A DNA stretch of 64,000 bases. Source: Nodosilinea sp. P-1105 (GTDB taxonomy: Bacteria; Cyanobacteriota; Cyanobacteriia; Phormidesmidales; Phormidesmidaceae). The stretch spans positions 1 to 64,000 of the forward strand of contig NZ_SMDQ01000016.1 in assembly GCF_012911975.1 (NCBI RefSeq). Direction: 5' to 3'. Shown piece after piece: positions 31,628 to 36,907 of this stretch. The number at the start of each line of letters is the position of its first letter. The stretch's first letter is position 1. The translations under genes were made by a program, and so were the position numbers. Under the pieces are notes generated by a model. It was not told the DNA's origin and searched no databases. It saw nothing but the letters and a program-made list of their open reading frames with translations.

Positions 31628-32881
31628 CTAGACAACCACCCCCATCACCAGCCCCGCCAGGGCCCCGACTGGGATCAACTGCCAGGTGGGGCGACGAAAG
31701 CGCACCAGGGCGACGAGGGTCGCCAAGCTCAGGGCGATCGCAACTGCCGTCAGTGGCCACTGGTCTTGCCATAGGGCAGCTTGGGCTAGGGGCAGGGTAG
31801 CGGCCGCGATCGCCCCCAGGACCGCTGGCATCACCCCTTTTAGAAAACGCTTCACCCAGGGGTTCTGCCGTAGGCGCAGTAAAAAGGGGGATGTAAACAT
31901 AATGAAAAAAAACGACGGCAAGAAAATTGCCACGGTGGCCACTAGGGCCCCTAGTACCCCGGCTACCTTGTAGCCCACAAAGGCGGCGGTAATCACCACT
32001 GGACCAGGGGTCAGTTCGCCCAGGGCCACTCCATCCAGAAACTGACTCCGGCTCATCCACTGAAAGTCATCCACTACTGCCGATTCCAGCAGGGGAATAA
32101 TCACCAGGCCACCGCCAAAGATAAAGGCACCGACCTGGACAAAAAATAACCCTAGGGGCAGGGCGTATGCTTGAATGCGCTCTAAGCCCCAAAAGCTAGA
32201 CATGACCGACGTCTCGGCAGGAACCGTTGCCAACCAGGATAGCCAAGGGACGATCCAGACACGGAGACGGGGCGATGGTCCTGGTGGGGGTAGTTGGGTG
32301 GGCCGATAGACCACTAGCCCCACTAATCCGGACAAGATAAACAGCAGCAAGACATTGGGGCGAAAGAGTAACGATATGAGCAGGACTGTCAGGGCGATCG
32401 CCACCCCGGTCCGGTCCTTAATCGCCTTTTTGGCTAGCTTCCAACAAAAGCCAAAAATAATCGCAATTACCACTGGCGAAATGCCTAAAAACAGGTGTTC
32501 AATCTGGGGTACCCCCTGAAACCGAAAGTAGGCCCAGGACAACACCACCATGATCAAAAAAGCGGGCAGGATGAAGCTGGCGCCTGCCACCAGCGCCCCC
32601 CACTGTCCGGCTCGCAGATAGCCCGTGTACATGCCCGTTTGGGTCGAGGCCGGGCCAGGCAGCATTTCGCAAATGGCCACCCCCTCCAGGAACTGCTCCT
32701 CCTGGAACCAACCCCGCCGCACCACCGCCTCGTCGTGAATCATGGCAATGTGGGCCTGGGGGCCACCAAAGCCAATTGCCCCCAGCCGTAAAAAGAGCTT
32801 TGCCAATTCCTTAAGACGAATCGACAAAGGGATCGAGTTTCGATTCAAATGTTGGGTTTCAGGTTCAGTAGAGTGACCCAT
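31628..32881 (-). CDS. chrA: Chromate efflux transporter, long (two-domain) CHR family
   Basis: About 417 residues from the preferred ATG at 32881 (MGHSTEPE); an upstream in-frame ATG at 32926 overlaps the transposase-fragment frame and is less likely. Each half carries the CHR signature: FLRLGAIGFGGPQAHIAMIHD with MLPGPASTQTGMYTGYL in the first, and FVQVGAFIFGGGLVIIPLLES with LTPGPVVITAAFVGYKVAG in the second. There are ten or more membrane segments. It exports chromate, probably against sulfate-like uptake. It lies directly downstream of a broken IS element. Confidence 0.9.
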   Translation of the reverse strand: MGHSTEPETQHLNRNSIPLSIRLKELAKLFLRLGAIGFGGPQAHIAMIHDEAVVRRGWFQEEQFLEGVAICEMLPGPASTQTGMYTGYLRAGQWGALVAGASFILPAFLIMVVLSWAYFRFQGVPQIEHLFLGISPVVIAIIFGFCWKLAKKAIKDRTGVAIALTVLLISLLFRPNVLLLFILSGLVGLVVYRPTQLPPPGPSPRLRVWIVPWLSWLATVPAETSVMSSFWGLERIQAYALPLGLFFVQVGAFIFGGGLVIIPLLESAVVDDFQWMSRSQFLDGVALGELTPGPVVITAAFVGYKVAGVLGALVATVAIFLPSFFFIMFTSPFLLRLRQNPWVKRFLKGVMPAVLGAIAAATLPLAQAALWQDQWPLTAVAIALSLATLVALVRFRRPTWQLIPVGALAGLVMGVVV

Positions 32882-32904
32882 AGCCTCACAGTTACTTGCT
32901 GAGG

Positions 32905-33291
32905 CTACTGTATCGAAACCGAACATGAAAATCCTATCGCATGGACGACATTTAGCCTGGGTGGATGCATTTCACTCACCCCAGTCTGATAGAGTTGGTC
33001 TAAGCCGCGACCCAGACGGTCATCGTTGAAATGCTCCGCCTCTAGCCCCTCGCCAAGCAAATGCTCGGTCGCCTTACCCACGAAAAATTGCTCGAATAAG
33101 TACAACGGTGCGCTGACAAAGCCTAGTCCATTCAAAATCATCGCTTTGACCACCACGCCGATGCTGATGGTCTCGCGAGGGTCGACCCCGATCCGCTCGT
33201 TGAGATAGTCCACCAAGCCCAGTTCGTCCACCAAACCCGCCACGATTCCCAGGTGATCTAAGTTCTTGACCGTCAGGTTGGAGTCACTCAT
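32905..33291 (-). pseudogene. Truncated IS1634-family transposase (DUF4277 N-terminus)
   Basis: From the ATG at 33291 it reads VKNLDHLGIVAGLVDELGLV, VVVKAMILNGLGFVSAPLYLFEQFF and KATEHLLGEGLEAEHFNDDRLGR, the DUF4277 region that starts IS1634-type transposases. The match fades after LDQLYQTG (about 32975) and the frame then ends in unrelated sequence. The DDE catalytic core is missing, so it cannot be active. A 21-bp tandem repeat lies upstream at 33337-33378, possibly from the same insertion. Confidence 0.8.
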
Positions 33292-33336
33292 CACAACGTT
33301 GCCTCCGTTGCACCACTGATGAAAGTATGTCGCCTT

Positions 33337-33378
33337 ATTCTTGATGTGACAATTCAAATTCTTGATGTGACAATTCAA
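33337..33378. repeat. 21-bp tandem duplication (two exact copies)
   Basis: Two exact copies of a unit beginning ATTCTTGATGTGACAATTC lie at 33337-33357 and 33358-33378, 46 bp upstream of the transposase fragment start. They are AT-rich compared with surrounding sequence. Confidence 0.85.
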
Positions 33379-33487
33379 AGGCCGGAATGTAGGGTTCAAC
33401 AGCCACAGTCACCTGAGCAAACAGTTTCGTCAGGCGACGGGCTTAACCCCCAGTGCTTACAGAAGTCGTTAACAAGCTTCTGCAATA

Positions 33488-36400
33488 CTATTCAGCTCGC
33501 TGTAGCGCAGTAATTTTGGGATCAACGATTTTGCGACCCTGCCCTTGGAACTGAATCGCCAAGCAGATCTTGTTACCTGCCCCAAAAATGTGGGTCACCT
33601 GCCCGGCTCCATAGGCTTTATGCACCACCACATCCCCCACGGTCCAGTCGGCTTCGTGGGCACCGCTGCCCGGTTTGGCGTCGGTCTCTCGTTGTTTACG
33701 GGCTTCCCGCAGGGGGGTGCTCCAGCGTTGGGGCAGGCTAGCGGAACTATCACCGCTCACCAGTTCCGCCGGTAGCTCACTCAAAAACAAAGACGGGCTG
33801 GCGGGTTCGCGGTTGCCGTACAGGCGGCGGGCGCGAGCGTGGGAAATGAACAGCCGCTCCTGGGCCCGGGTAATGCCCACATAGCAGAGACGGCGCTCTT
33901 CTTCGGTGGCGGCGGGGTCTTCTAAGGACCGATGGTTGGGGAACAGACCCTGCTCTAACCCCACCAGGAACACTACTGGAAACTCTAACCCCTTCGACGA
34001 GTGCAGGGTCATCAGGGATACCGCGTTGGGCCCTTCGGCGCTGTCATCGAGATCCGAAGCCAAGGAGGCATTGGCTAAAAAAGCCAGCAGTGATGGATCT
34101 TCGCTTTCCTCTTCAAATTGCAGTACAGCGTTATAGAGTTCTTGCACGTTGCTAAAGCGATCGTCCGCTTCGTCGGTACCTTCGGCCTTGAGGGCAGCCA
34201 GGTAGCCACTGTCTTCCAGCACTCCTTGGATAATCTCGGACCCCTTTTGGTTGTCGATGTCCTGACGGTATTTCTTGATCAGGTCGGTAAAGGCCAGCAC
34301 CCCTTTGGCCGACCGCCCGGCTAAGGTTTTGACGGAGGTTTCATCGGCCAGAATTTCCCATAGGGGAATATTGCCCAGGGTTTGGCTGGCTTGATCGAGT
34401 TTGTCCAGGGTGCCTTTGCCCACCCCCCGCCGGGGCACGTTGATCACTCGCTTCAGACTAACGGTGTCGAAGGGGTTGGCGATCGCCCGCAGGTAAGCCA
34501 GCACATCTTTAATTTCCCGGCGATCGTAGAACCGCAGCCCCCCCACCACCTTGTAGGGAATGCTATAGCGGGTCAGCACCTCCTCAAAGGCGCGGGACTG
34601 GGCGTTGGTGCGATAGAGAATGGCAAAGTCCCCCCAGCGCAACTCGGGATGTTGGGTTTCCAGGTTACGAATCTGGCGGACCACAAAATCGGCTTCAGTG
34701 GTTTCGTCGTCCGCCCGATACAGATAAATGCTCTCCCCTTCCCCTCGGGTAGCCCGCAGCACCTTGTCAATGCGTTCAGTGTTGTTTTCAATCAGGTAGT
34801 TGGCCACCTCCAAAATATTGGAGGTAGAACGATAGTTTTCCTCCAGCTTCACCATGGTGCGGGTGTCGTCATCGGCCAGCCCGTCGCCAAAGTCATCCTG
34901 AAAGTTCATCAGAATGGTAAAATCCGCAGCCCGGAAGGAATAGATGGAGTTATGAACAAGCACCCCCTCCGCGATGTAGCTATGGCTATGATCAACCTCT
35001 AAATCGTAGACCTCGCCGTCATAATCTTCCTGCCAAACGTCGATAACATTACGCTCCTCTAGTTGTCCGTCGATGTCTAGCAGGACCTGCATACCTGGAT
35101 GCAGGTGAGACAGGGGTAAAAAGTTATAGATTTCACTGTCAATCTGGGCGCGACGACGAATATCTAACCCTCCCGCCGCCGCCGCGGCTTTAACGATGGA
35201 GACAGCCTCAGGATAAGAGGTTCGGGCCGTTTCGTAGCGGTAGGTACCCGGTAGCTTCCCTGGACATATAGGGTAGCCCGCTTCAGCAAAGTTAGCGGCA
35301 ATGTCAGCTCGATTGGACGACCACTGAATGCGATGATCAGCCTTGGGGTGAACTCGTTCCTTACGGACGTTGCCAAACATGGTCAAATTAATCGTTTGAC
35401 GACGCAAGCCATTTTGTGGTCGATAGTGGGGAAAATCGGGATGCAGCTCCAAGTCCTGCATCAGGGCCTCGGCCTTCGTAAACGTATCTAGCTCAGAAAA
35501 TAGCTTGAAAATTGTCTCATCTGAAATACTTAACTTCCGGCCTTTGGCATGGAACACCATGGTCGGCAAACCATATTTGGCGGCGAAATAGGCCTCATAG
35601 TAAGCGGCTTCTTCGTAACTATTGGTTGCTTTTAGCACCCAGAGCTTATCGGCATTCTCCTGGGCAACTCGCACCTTAAACCCAATCTCTTTCTTGCCAT
35701 GGTCATTAGCGCGCTGTCCGGTGGTTAGGCCGATGCGATAGCCACGGTCGGCCCGAAACATCAGGTAAACATAGTAGCGATCGAGCAGCGGCACCATACG
35801 GGCCATGAGAATGTGGTGGGGGGTGCCCCTAAGGATGCGGTCGCCCGCTTTGATGCACCACAACTTTCCCTTAAACTGCCCTCGCTGAATGTGGGTAATC
35901 TTGGCGGGATATAGTGTCGTTTGCCCTAGGGTAGAAAGTACTTCGTCCCCCACTTCCAGGGACTGAATCGGCACCTCTCCCTGGGGCGTTAACACGGCTG
36001 TGTTGGGGGGCAAACACTGGTCGGCATCGCCCACTACAAATACCGAGCGGTGATTCCAATCTTTGTAAGTGGCAATGGACTCCCCATTGGTGGCTAATAG
36101 CCGAATCAACTCGTACTGGGTACGGTTGGTGTCCTGGTATTCATCCACCAAAATGTGGCGGAAGCGCTTGTGCCAGTAGGCCAGCACCTGTTCGTTTTGC
36201 TGAAACAGGTACACAGGCATCAAAATCAGGTCATCAAAATCCAGGGCGTTATTTTCCGCCAGAGCCTTTTGGTAATGGCGATACACGTCGGCAATCACCC
36301 GACCTCGATAGTTGGGCTGCTCCTGTTCTAACTCATCAGGGGATAGCTTTTGGTTTTTGGCATTGCTGATGGCAAACCGCACCGATCGCGGATTGAACTT

Positions 36401-36907
36401 TTTATCATCCAGGTTCAGGGTCTGGGTGACGATGGTTTTAACCAGGCCCTGGGCGTCTGACTCATCAAAAATTGAGAAGTTCTTGGTCCAGCGGTAGCCC
36501 GCCGGATGCTGATACTTTTCGATATCAAACCGCAACATGCGGGCACACAGGGCATGGAAGGTGCCAATCCACAGGTATTTGGTGATGTTTTTGTATACCT
36601 GGGACTTCAGTTTGATTTGCTGGGCTTCTGACAGGGTCGATAGGGGCTTGCCGTAGTGGGCCTGGGCGTCCTGCTCGGCAAACAGGGCCTCAATCCGGGC
36701 CTTCATTTCTTTGGCCGCTTTGTTGGTGAATGTGACTGCCAGAATGTTGTCTGGGTCTGTTTTGTGGGTCAGTACCAGGTTGGCGATGCGGAATGTGAGG
36801 GCGCGGGTTTTGCCCGAGCCCGCCCCCGCCACCACCAACAGCGGGCCGCAGTAGTGTTCGACGGCTTGGCGTTGGGCAGGGTTGAGGGCAGCTAGGAAAT
36901 CAGTCAT
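33488..36907 (-). CDS. pcrA: DNA helicase PcrA/UvrD with an intein
   Basis: A superfamily 1 3'-5' helicase for repair and replication restart. The precursor is 1139 residues; removing the intein (residues 298-653) leaves 783, the usual PcrA length. Walker A GAGSGKT is at 28-34, TFHALCARML and VDEYQDTN (Walker B) follow, and motif III GDADQ/SIYSFRAAD is split by the intein between Gln297 and Ser654. After the intein come RTNAQSRAFEEVLTR, VINVPRRGVGKGT, MTLHSSKGLEFPVVFLVG and YVGITRAQERLF. The C-terminal 60 residues match the PcrA RNA-polymerase-binding Tudor-like tail (VVHKAYGAGQVTHIFG). Splicing is needed for a complete motif III. It is transcribed alone. Confidence 0.96.
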   Translation of the reverse strand: MTDFLAALNPAQRQAVEHYCGPLLVVAGAGSGKTRALTFRIANLVLTHKTDPDNILAVTFTNKAAKEMKARIEALFAEQDAQAHYGKPLSTLSEAQQIKLKSQVYKNITKYLWIGTFHALCARMLRFDIEKYQHPAGYRWTKNFSIFDESDAQGLVKTIVTQTLNLDDKKFNPRSVRFAISNAKNQKLSPDELEQEQPNYRGRVIADVYRHYQKALAENNALDFDDLILMPVYLFQQNEQVLAYWHKRFRHILVDEYQDTNRTQYELIRLLATNGESIATYKDWNHRSVFVVGDADQCLPPNTAVLTPQGEVPIQSLEVGDEVLSTLGQTTLYPAKITHIQRGQFKGKLWCIKAGDRILRGTPHHILMARMVPLLDRYYVYLMFRADRGYRIGLTTGQRANDHGKKEIGFKVRVAQENADKLWVLKATNSYEEAAYYEAYFAAKYGLPTMVFHAKGRKLSISDETIFKLFSELDTFTKAEALMQDLELHPDFPHYRPQNGLRRQTINLTMFGNVRKERVHPKADHRIQWSSNRADIAANFAEAGYPICPGKLPGTYRYETARTSYPEAVSIVKAAAAAGGLDIRRRAQIDSEIYNFLPLSHLHPGMQVLLDIDGQLEERNVIDVWQEDYDGEVYDLEVDHSHSYIAEGVLVHNSIYSFRAADFTILMNFQDDFGDGLADDDTRTMVKLEENYRSTSNILEVANYLIENNTERIDKVLRATRGEGESIYLYRADDETTEADFVVRQIRNLETQHPELRWGDFAILYRTNAQSRAFEEVLTRYSIPYKVVGGLRFYDRREIKDVLAYLRAIANPFDTVSLKRVINVPRRGVGKGTLDKLDQASQTLGNIPLWEILADETSVKTLAGRSAKGVLAFTDLIKKYRQDIDNQKGSEIIQGVLEDSGYLAALKAEGTDEADDRFSNVQELYNAVLQFEEESEDPSLLAFLANASLASDLDDSAEGPNAVSLMTLHSSKGLEFPVVFLVGLEQGLFPNHRSLEDPAATEEERRLCYVGITRAQERLFISHARARRLYGNREPASPSLFLSELPAELVSGDSSASLPQRWSTPLREARKQRETDAKPGSGAHEADWTVGDVVVHKAYGAGQVTHIFGAGNKICLAIQFQGQGRKIVDPKITALQRAE
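34949..36016 (-). other. Intein in PcrA, 356 residues, with a GIY-YIG-like insert
   Basis: It begins with Cys (CLPPNTAVLTPQGEVPI, block A), has GTPHHI as block B (T65, H68), and ends VYDLEVDHSHSYIAEGVLVHN with the penultimate His and terminal Asn; the next extein residue is Ser. These are the residues required for standard protein splicing. Between the splicing halves is about 200 residues without a visible LAGLIDADG pair. It contains YYVYLMFRADRGYRIGLTTGQR at intein residues 81-102 and EEAAYYEAYFAAKYG from 135, which resemble the GIY-YIG core and its downstream Glu helix. The insertion site is the invariant Q/S of helicase motif III. Nuclease assignment is inference. Confidence 0.92.

Follow-up and report, generated by a model that had tools for sequence, protein, structure and literature searches.

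A PcrA intein of the cyanobacterium Nodosilinea sp. P-1105 with a putative GIY-YIG-type nuclease domain and relatives in phages and plasmids

The stretch of DNA analyzed here, hereafter the window, comprises 64,000 nucleotides of Nodosilinea sp. P-1105 (positions 1 to 64,000 of contig NZ_SMDQ01000016.1) and carries a pcrA gene, encoding a PcrA/UvrD-type DNA helicase, that is interrupted by an insert of 356 codons. We conclude with good confidence that this insert is a class-1-type intein with a GIY-YIG-type homing endonuclease nested between its two splicing halves. The parts of this statement differ in strength: it is near certain that the insert is a class-1-type intein, it is likely that the nested domain belongs to a GIY-YIG-like class of nucleases, and DNA cutting by the window's intein, like its presumed target, is proposed from sequence, so that the domain is referred to as a putative nuclease.

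Results

The pcrA open reading frame (ORF; 33488..36907, on the minus strand like all other features of the intein and its host gene) runs through 1139 codons without a stop, and its product was identified as PcrA by the model TIGR01073 (916.5 bits versus a cut-off of 911.2). The intein (34949..36016) splits helicase motif III between GDADQ and SIYSF, and its removal leaves a PcrA of 783 residues (1139 - 356), as the original prediction had correctly calculated. The N-terminal half of the Hint domain (residues 1 to 74, 35795..36016) contains Cys1 and the block B residues Thr65 and His68, and the C-terminal half (residues 300 to 356, 34949..35119) ends in His355-Asn356, followed by Ser+1 as the first C-extein residue (codon TCC, 34946..34948). 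The NCBIfam model of intein C termini (TIGR01443) matched with 31.0 bits, above its cut-off of 15.6, while the NCBIfam N-terminal model (21.0 bits versus 24.5) and the Pfam model Intein_splicing (34.9 bits versus 35.8) fell just under theirs. An AlphaFold2 model of the insert, computed from the 47-row alignment described below, reached a predicted local distance difference test (pLDDT) value of 90 and a predicted template modeling (pTM) score of 0.85, and in VIA it superposed on the hedgehog Hint domain (Z 21.3, 137 residues, root mean square deviation [rmsd] 1.9) and on the RecA mini-intein (Z 20.5, 131 residues, rmsd 1.6). In a larger set of 59 aligned inteins, from which rows without a Cys start had been excluded, Cys1 and His68 were present in 59/59 and Thr65 in 53/59. 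The open frame, the splice residues, the Hint fold, and the intein-free alleles presented below all bear out the original prediction of an intein with a full set of splice residues at this point of PcrA, and the window copy would be expected to splice. Elsewhere in the family, inteins L008, L010, L011, and L012 contain about 8 extra residues between blocks A and B that are missing from the window copy; over the part that it covers, L012 hardly differs from the latter in any other way.

The conserved positions of the central domain (residues 78 to 160, 35537..35785) recall the GIY-YIG nucleases, whose catalytic set consists of Tyr, Arg, and Glu, in that order. An alignment of 47 inteins, made up of the window's, 3 other cyanobacterial inteins, and 43 viral inteins that are 21 to 31% identical to the window's, contained invariant columns at C1, H68, Y84, M86, R94, G96, R116, W126, E141, and N356. 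In the 59-row set, which adds SPO1, JohannJBalmer, Vibrio phage RYC, a Streptococcus suis phage, Providencia and Thermobispora plasmids, and six cyanobacterial inteins, Y84, R94, and G96 were found in all rows, R116 in 58, and E141 in 57. Tyr84 (35765..35767) is the tyrosine of the first motif, which reads VYLM in the place of GIY; R94-I95-G96 (35729..35737) takes the place of YIG, with Ile or Val preceding Gly96 in 59/59; Arg116 (35669..35671), in the first helix, is the candidate catalytic Arg; and Glu141 (35594..35596) is the candidate metal-binding Glu. The sequence patterns used in the viral scan covered E120-V127 and H345-V354, and the conservation of E120, W126, Y347, A349, and G351 is thus partly by construction; Y84, R94, G96, R116, and E141 lie outside both patterns. 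The line-up of Tyr, Arg, and Glu that the original prediction had asked for is present.

Profile-profile comparison also associated the domain with GIY-YIG sequences. Against a combined alignment of 23 GIY-YIG stretches (7 from UvrC, 9 from MUG113, and 7 from small GIY proteins), it scored 31.5, a level that 100 column shuffles never approached (highest, 12.9). When 30 windows of UvrC, PcrA, and Hint served as natural decoys, the UvrC GIY-YIG domain or its start came out on top (29.7 and 26.8), and the best unrelated window scored 20.2. UvrC alone gave 29.8 and MUG113 alone 22.8 (shuffle maximum, 15.5), and neither score was reached by any of 100 shuffles; adding T5orf172 to the combined set lowered the score to 27.6 (maximum of 13.6 in 60 shuffles). 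When the domain was aligned to MUG113 or to the combined set, R116 was paired with the Arg and E141 with the Glu of these sequences. The alignment to UvrC paired E141 with the UvrC Glu but left R116 off the UvrC Arg.

Several observations weigh against the assignment to this class. The GIY-YIG model PF01541 matched residues 81 to 148 of the window's intein with an E value of 0.063 and 14.0 bits, short of its 22.6 cut-off; this was the best of the matches at E ≤ 1, which were limited to 3 of the 47 inteins, and no GIY-YIG family model exceeded its cut-off in the Pfam scans of the window's intein and the 47 inteins. The Tyr of YIG is replaced by Arg (R94) in 59/59, so that the strict YIG form does not occur, and no invariant or nearly invariant Asn that could correspond to motif E was found between E141 and N356. 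The profile score was 15.8 for a YhbQ-like GIY set, a value reached by 1 of 100 shuffles, and 14.0 for T5orf172 alone, which is not above shuffles (maximum of 16.5 in 60). On the structural side, a Foldseek search of the PDB with a separate model of residues 76 to 300 (pLDDT 80) returned no match at E ≤ 0.001, the best one (E 0.044) being a designed protein, and no GIY-YIG structure was present among the 50 listed of 664 matches (E ≤ 10). The GIY-YIG nuclease Slx1-Slx4 was the only PDB row covering the domain among those listed in a second look, with a weak match (Z 4.4, 81 residues, rmsd 3.5). As to the motifs, part of the GIY-YIG clan lacks the YIG Tyr, since 25 extracted MUG113/T5orf172 stretches have Lys (23) or Arg (2) at that position, and motif E may be missing in GIY-YIG proteins such as Slx-1, according to the cited portion of PMC1564403. 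A T5orf172 member depends on its Glu, as stated in an excerpt of PMC10448857.

The check by profile models thus came out in part as the original prediction had it: PF01541 does match at the expected place but below its cut-off, and T5orf172 and MUG113 were absent from the Pfam scans of the window's intein (E ≤ 10) and of the 47 inteins (E ≤ 1). Among PHROGs, the window's intein was unmatched and any single family was matched by at most 5 of the 47 inteins; the profile of the central domain had no sequence relative in the PDB. Membership in a named Pfam subfamily was considered and rejected, given the T5orf172 profile that did no better than shuffles and the lack of a Pfam match. The domain is consequently filed as GIY-YIG-type and not as a member of PF01541, an assignment with good but not complete support. 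In a separate observation, a small cyanobacterial MUG113 protein (L131) reads YVYLIRVGDLYRIGKT, strikingly like the YVYLM...GYRIGLTT of the intein, and could represent a free-standing protein closely related to the intein domain.

In the predicted structure, the domain consists of two strands (81-88 and 92-99), a helix carrying R116 (112-119), a third strand (124-131), and a helix carrying E141 (134-148). When the 76-300 model was compared to a viral structure library, ranks 1 to 3 were direct relatives (E 5.5e-12 to 5.6e-8). Ranks 4 to 27 (24 rows, E 0.0047 and higher) included 11 functionally named rows, all of them endonucleases (GIY-YIG, group I intron, homing, NUMOD-type, or plain endonuclease), the others being unnamed or uncharacterized. 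Rows below rank 27 were mixed, with one LAGLIDADG protein at rank 33. The original prediction had anticipated a GIY-YIG fold; given the endonuclease-named viral rows and, from the PDB rows listed, the weak Slx1-Slx4 match described above, the modeled fold is consistent with it, though weakly so.

The nuclease-like domain is followed by a helical linker (residues 161 to 204, 35405..35536, with helices at 166-175 and 178-188) and by a further module of about 90 residues (205 to 292, 35141..35404) that had not been part of the original prediction. The linker aligns in short inteins too, where it runs directly into the Hint C-terminal half. The accessory module is confined to long inteins, with counterparts exceeding 70 residues in 8 of the 59 rows, namely, the window's intein, L007, L008, L009, L015, viral L056 and L057, and JohannJBalmer. 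Its elements are arranged strand-strand-helix-strand-helix. It had no Pfam match, in VIA it reached no more than a Z of about 5, to microcompartment shell proteins, and the module was left unnamed. A LAGLIDADG origin, hinted at by the order of strands and helices and by weak Foldseek rows for LAGLIDADG proteins and MotA, was tried and rejected, as the comparison of the module profile with LAGLIDADG_3 was no better than shuffles (33 of 100 reached the score). From its position, the module probably helps to choose the DNA site; DNA-binding parts follow the nuclease cores in phage homing enzymes, as described in the part of PMC3943268 cited here.

The same module enters into a different reading, in which the central domain would be a degenerate LAGLIDADG nuclease, or another nuclease resembling GIY-YIG, and the module the rest of a LAGLIDADG domain. 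This we regard as very improbable. The nuclease type usual for inteins is LAGLIDADG (PMC8966425, in the section cited), and in a wider survey LAGLIDADG_3 was matched in 57 of 194 cyanobacterial genomes, while the GIY-YIG-like domain occurred in 4 of 386; LAGLIDADG meganucleases were among the weak hits that the 76-300 model had in the PDB (from E 0.086 upward), next to the viral row at rank 33; and the helicase intein of phage CB7, which may or may not belong to the present class, is labeled LAGLIDADG in the cited part of PMC7344957. Yet, just as the original prediction had noted no LAGLIDADG signs in the middle of the insert, no LAGLIDADG model matched in the Pfam scans of the window's intein (E ≤ 10) or the 47 inteins (E ≤ 1), and Hom_end_hint, which was matched by 4 of the 47, is a model of Hint and not of a nuclease. 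Moreover, the central domain scored 15.2 against LAGLIDADG_3 versus 31.5 against GIY-YIG, its conserved residues keep the GIY-YIG order, and the shuffle result for the module argues against the remainder of this reading. We therefore retain the GIY-YIG-like assignment.

To place the intein among its cyanobacterial relatives, the genomes of the order were surveyed. An intein match was found in 9 of 63 genomes and lay in pcrA in 8, six of which belong to the genus (G000, G411, G413, G420, G421, and G422) and two to another genus of the family (G430 and G431); the only relative in G424 sits in another helicase. A 79-residue PcrA probe matched 59 of the 63 genomes. Among the best 30 of these 59 matches, 7 carried the intein and 23 read GDADQ/SIYSF without an insert. 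The insert is thus not a chance feature of pcrA, because the gene exists without it, and the intein-free alleles that the original prediction had proposed for comparison do occur in cyanobacteria. For the 26 genomes of the genus, the tally was 6 carriers, 19 empty sites, and 1 undetermined. When the 8 carriers were mapped on a 30-row tree of the N-extein, 6 changes were required, and well supported branches made no fewer than 4 of these unavoidable. Clustering of the carriers on this tree did not go beyond shuffles (101 of 500 were as low) in a test over these 30 rows, which do not include L039 because the search motif missed it.

If the insert were a plain product of vertical inheritance, or an error of assembly, part of these data would be hard to account for, and we give this explanation hardly any credence. 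An insert at the same codon, with full splice residues, was found in assemblies of other species, and the intein and host trees disagree on L008: the N-extein tree rejected the intein-tree grouping of L008 (P = 0.0008 in the approximately unbiased [AU] test), whereas rejection of the host grouping by the intein tree fell short of significance (p-AU 0.092), the tested group having been picked after the tree was seen. In favor of vertical descent, intein and extein divergence were alike in several cyanobacterial pairs, and the intein was closer than the N-extein in 0 of 21. No co-conversion was apparent in cyanobacteria either, the mismatch rate within 30 nucleotides (nt) being 0.219 for plus/minus pairs versus 0.218 for minus/minus pairs. 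These last two results speak against recent homing among the sampled carriers. The Ser+1 codon was TCN in 9/9 carriers versus 12/23 empty alleles (P = 0.029 for 7/7 versus 12/23), a difference that was noticed post hoc among related carriers and is not relied on. The cyanobacterial copy may be either a young or an ageing homing element. Separately, another UvrD-like helicase is interrupted in two genomes of the genus, again at motif III; the intein there (L020:1261-2136 and L023:1291-2166, both on the minus strand) is 292 residues long, represents a second variety of the type, and has a Cys-Asn end before Ser.

Selective constraint was evaluated in five cyanobacterial copies, i.e., 10 pairs. 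The nuclease-like domain was 84 to 93% identical at the amino acid level, with a nonsynonymous divergence (dN) of 0.040 to 0.097, compared to 57 to 86% (dN, 0.079 to 0.328) for the Hint N-terminal half and 68 to 86% for the Hint C-terminal half, so that it was better kept than both Hint halves in 10/10 pairs. The helical linker was even more conserved than the nuclease-like domain in 5/10 pairs and the accessory module in 1/10. The ratio of dN to synonymous divergence (dS) for the nuclease-like domain was 0.03 to 0.07 in the 5 of 10 pairs for which it was computable, many dS values being saturated. A putative nuclease domain that is kept better than the splicing domain around it fits selection for nuclease function. 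At the same site, the PcrA inteins of two other cyanobacteria have lost candidate catalytic residues and kept their splice residues: L002:1330-2157 (minus strand) has E141V, and L004:1195-1983 (minus strand) has R116L and E141V. Such losses are the decay expected after fixation.

The two decayed copies, together with the lack of visible recent transfer among cyanobacterial carriers, could also mean that the domain of the window's intein is a GIY-YIG remnant without cutting activity, with the intein persisting through splicing alone, or that the domain now stabilizes or regulates Hint or PcrA, for instance, through conditional splicing. We find this unlikely. All five residues (Y84, R94, G96, R116, and E141) are intact in the clade of the window's intein, and the nuclease-like domain outdoes both Hint halves in every pair, even if the linker is higher still in half of them. 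The patchy presence, with its forced gains or losses on well supported branches, and the empty site in most genomes of the genus likewise weigh against a relic.

Relatives were much more numerous in viruses, an aspect that goes beyond the original prediction. A scan of viral contigs with a profile of the alignment detected 65 loci, 49 of which encode the same central domain; no locus was detected when the single cyanobacterial intein L003 was used as the query. Of the 49, 43 were aligned, excluding three near copies (L068, L073, and L084), two with a misplaced end (L077 and L100), and one without a Cys start (L097); the second intein-domain copy of L080 was also left out. The same type of intein is present in named phages (SPO1, phi92, BASEL phages, and Streptococcus suis phages) and in plasmids. 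Of 47 viral inteins with both ends placed, 22 are preceded by the GDxxQ of helicase motif III and 5 are inserted no more than a few residues from it; another 16 interrupt genes that look by eye like adenine methyltransferases, and 4 are found elsewhere, with two ends among the 47, in L100 and L111, placed wrongly. The methyltransferase reading agrees with the record names for the Streptococcus suis phages. The motif III site that PcrA has in common with phage helicases suggests exchange with phages, the direction of which we infer.

Three of the viral loci showed unusual arrangements. In L080, an ORF of 1278 residues starting from base 286 contains two copies of the GIY-YIG-like intein domain (amino acids 384 to 494 and 994 to 1111). 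In L097, the intein in the ORF from base 2224 has an apparent Ala start (GDDDQ/AGVLGT) instead of Cys, with an HN end before Cys, and would need another splicing start. In L085, the ORF from base 1157 contains, beyond its GIY-YIG-type intein, the sequence CLHPDALVLTESG, a second start of Hint-like appearance, which suggests that the methyltransferase-like gene holds another intein.

Signs of mobility were sought in closely related phages. Of 119 records matching the helicase gene of phi92-like phages, 36 span 80% or more of its intein-containing form, and 20 of the 60 that were listed are without the intein but otherwise 97.5 to 98.5% identical. JohannJBalmer, which carries the intein, and EmilieFrey, which does not, both recorded from E. 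coli K-12 as host, show 25 mismatches in the 90 nt surrounding the site and 16 in the remaining 1647 nt. Among eight phi92-like phages, the same contrast was seen in 16/16 plus/minus pairs (24 to 26 mismatches in 90 nt near the site, 10 to 33 in 1647 nt far from it), compared to 0 to 4 mismatches in 90 nt in 12 control pairs of the same state, one of which gave P = 0.037 (EmilieFrey-KKE7M, 4/90). The near zone of 30 plus 60 nt was set after one pair had been viewed, and these phages share ancestry, so that 16 pairs are not 16 events. JohannJBalmer and Phapecoctavirus DIJ07P2, a phage of another genus, are 96.2% identical in the intein, 73.2% in the left extein, and 84.0% far to the right, with the first 120 nt to the right of the intein matching at 119/120; for JohannJBalmer and Klebsiella phage KP2025, the values are 89.9% in the intein, 73.1% to the left, and 79.1% far to the right. 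We read these phi92-type sequence patterns as traces of double-strand-break repair that copied the intein along with its flanks (co-conversion), in one case between genera. Homing with co-conversion of the flanks through double-strand-break repair is described in the cited part of PMC2988022. Intein-plus and intein-minus alleles also coexist among SPO1-like records (13 with, 6 without). Against these signs of movement stand SPO1 and Goe9, between which no tract was visible near the site (4/90 near, 85/2022 elsewhere), and the fact that the phage evidence concerns relatives only about 26% identical to the window's intein.

Just downstream of pcrA, the window contains an ORF at 32905-33399 (minus strand) with a match to DUF4277 (PF14104), a domain that occurs in IS1634-type transposases, followed at 31628-32926 (minus strand) by a gene for a chromate transporter family protein (PF02417).

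Discussion

Taken together, these results support the following mechanism. The 1139-residue precursor would excise the segment from Cys1 to Asn356 through an acyl shift at Cys1, transfer to Ser+1, and cyclization of Asn356, and the exteins would join into the 783-residue PcrA. The freed intein would then cut an intein-less pcrA at or near the motif III codons by means of Y84, R116, E141, and a metal ion, with the module of about 90 residues probably aiding the choice of the DNA site, and recombination repair would copy the intein with a short flank into the cut gene.

Beyond the window, we think it likely, with less confidence than for the intein itself, that these elements form an unrecognized and widespread class of homing inteins with an in-frame GIY-YIG-type nuclease. 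Through cuts in adenine methyltransferase genes and at helicase motif III, members of this class would currently be passing between phages, plasmids, and bacterial chromosomes, the cyanobacterial PcrA would be a recipient from a phage-like source, and the long form would have added a new DNA-recognition module. If the class is real, known phage inteins such as those of SPO1 and phi92 are homing inteins whose nuclease has been overlooked, and the domain library misses the type, as illustrated by the few and subthreshold PF01541 matches. It would also represent an independent origin of homing inteins that can be compared with the LAGLIDADG ones, and a compact fusion (about 265 to 365 residues) of splicing and GIY-YIG-type cutting. 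Homing should be measurable in a simple cross, because intein-plus and intein-minus sister phages share a recorded host, E. coli K-12.

In the literature, a 2006 survey of the GIY-YIG superfamily places the domain in group I introns and not in inteins, in the passages cited (PMC1564403). The section on intein structure of PMC7765530 lists GIY-YIG among four homing endonuclease families and gives no example there. For the Jug phages, the cited part of PMC12363816 describes in-gene endonuclease domains of the HNH and LAGLIDADG types, the others, GIY-YIG included, being stand-alone. Our searches of the open-licence literature, which most subscription papers are not part of, brought up no intein described as containing a GIY-YIG domain in frame.

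The closest known systems are phage inteins. The inteins of SPO1 gp34.33, a UvrD-type helicase, and of JohannJBalmer sit at the same point of motif III as the window's and have Y, F, R, G, R, W, and E at positions 84, 93, 94, 96, 116, 126, and 141. The SPO1 intein (275 residues) lacks the accessory module and was found with L003, not with the window's intein. The phi92-like helicase inteins, including those of the BASEL phages JohannJBalmer and PaulScherrer, belong to the same family and, at about 26% identity to the window's intein, also have the module. The inteins of SPO1, CampHawk, and the BASEL phages are already known as inteins, and the annotation shown for the SPO1 and phi92 types reads intein or helicase, with no nuclease named. 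Among nuclease families, T5orf172 and MUG113 have, like the window's domain, a basic residue at the YIG Tyr and the order Arg then Glu; they differ in that neither has a Pfam match here, and only the MUG113 profile passes the shuffle test, which the T5orf172 profile fails. LAGLIDADG homing inteins of the PI-SceI and PI-PfuI type resemble the window's in their Hint domain, their splice residues, and a nuclease placed after block B but differ in the nuclease class, since the window's has GIY-YIG residues and no LAGLIDADG signal. In AceL NrdHF, as presented in the cited part of PMC7891396, a split class 3 intein is associated with a GIY-YIG domain in a separate intervening gene, whereas the window's intein is continuous, of class 1 type, and contains the domain itself. 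Finally, I-TevI, the Seg enzymes, and other GIY-YIG enzymes of group I introns likewise combine a small core with other modules that follow it, and homing with flank co-conversion is reported for such enzymes in the part of PMC2988022 cited above. These enzymes are intron-borne or free-standing, whereas the putative nuclease of the window lies inside an intein, in frame with its host protein.

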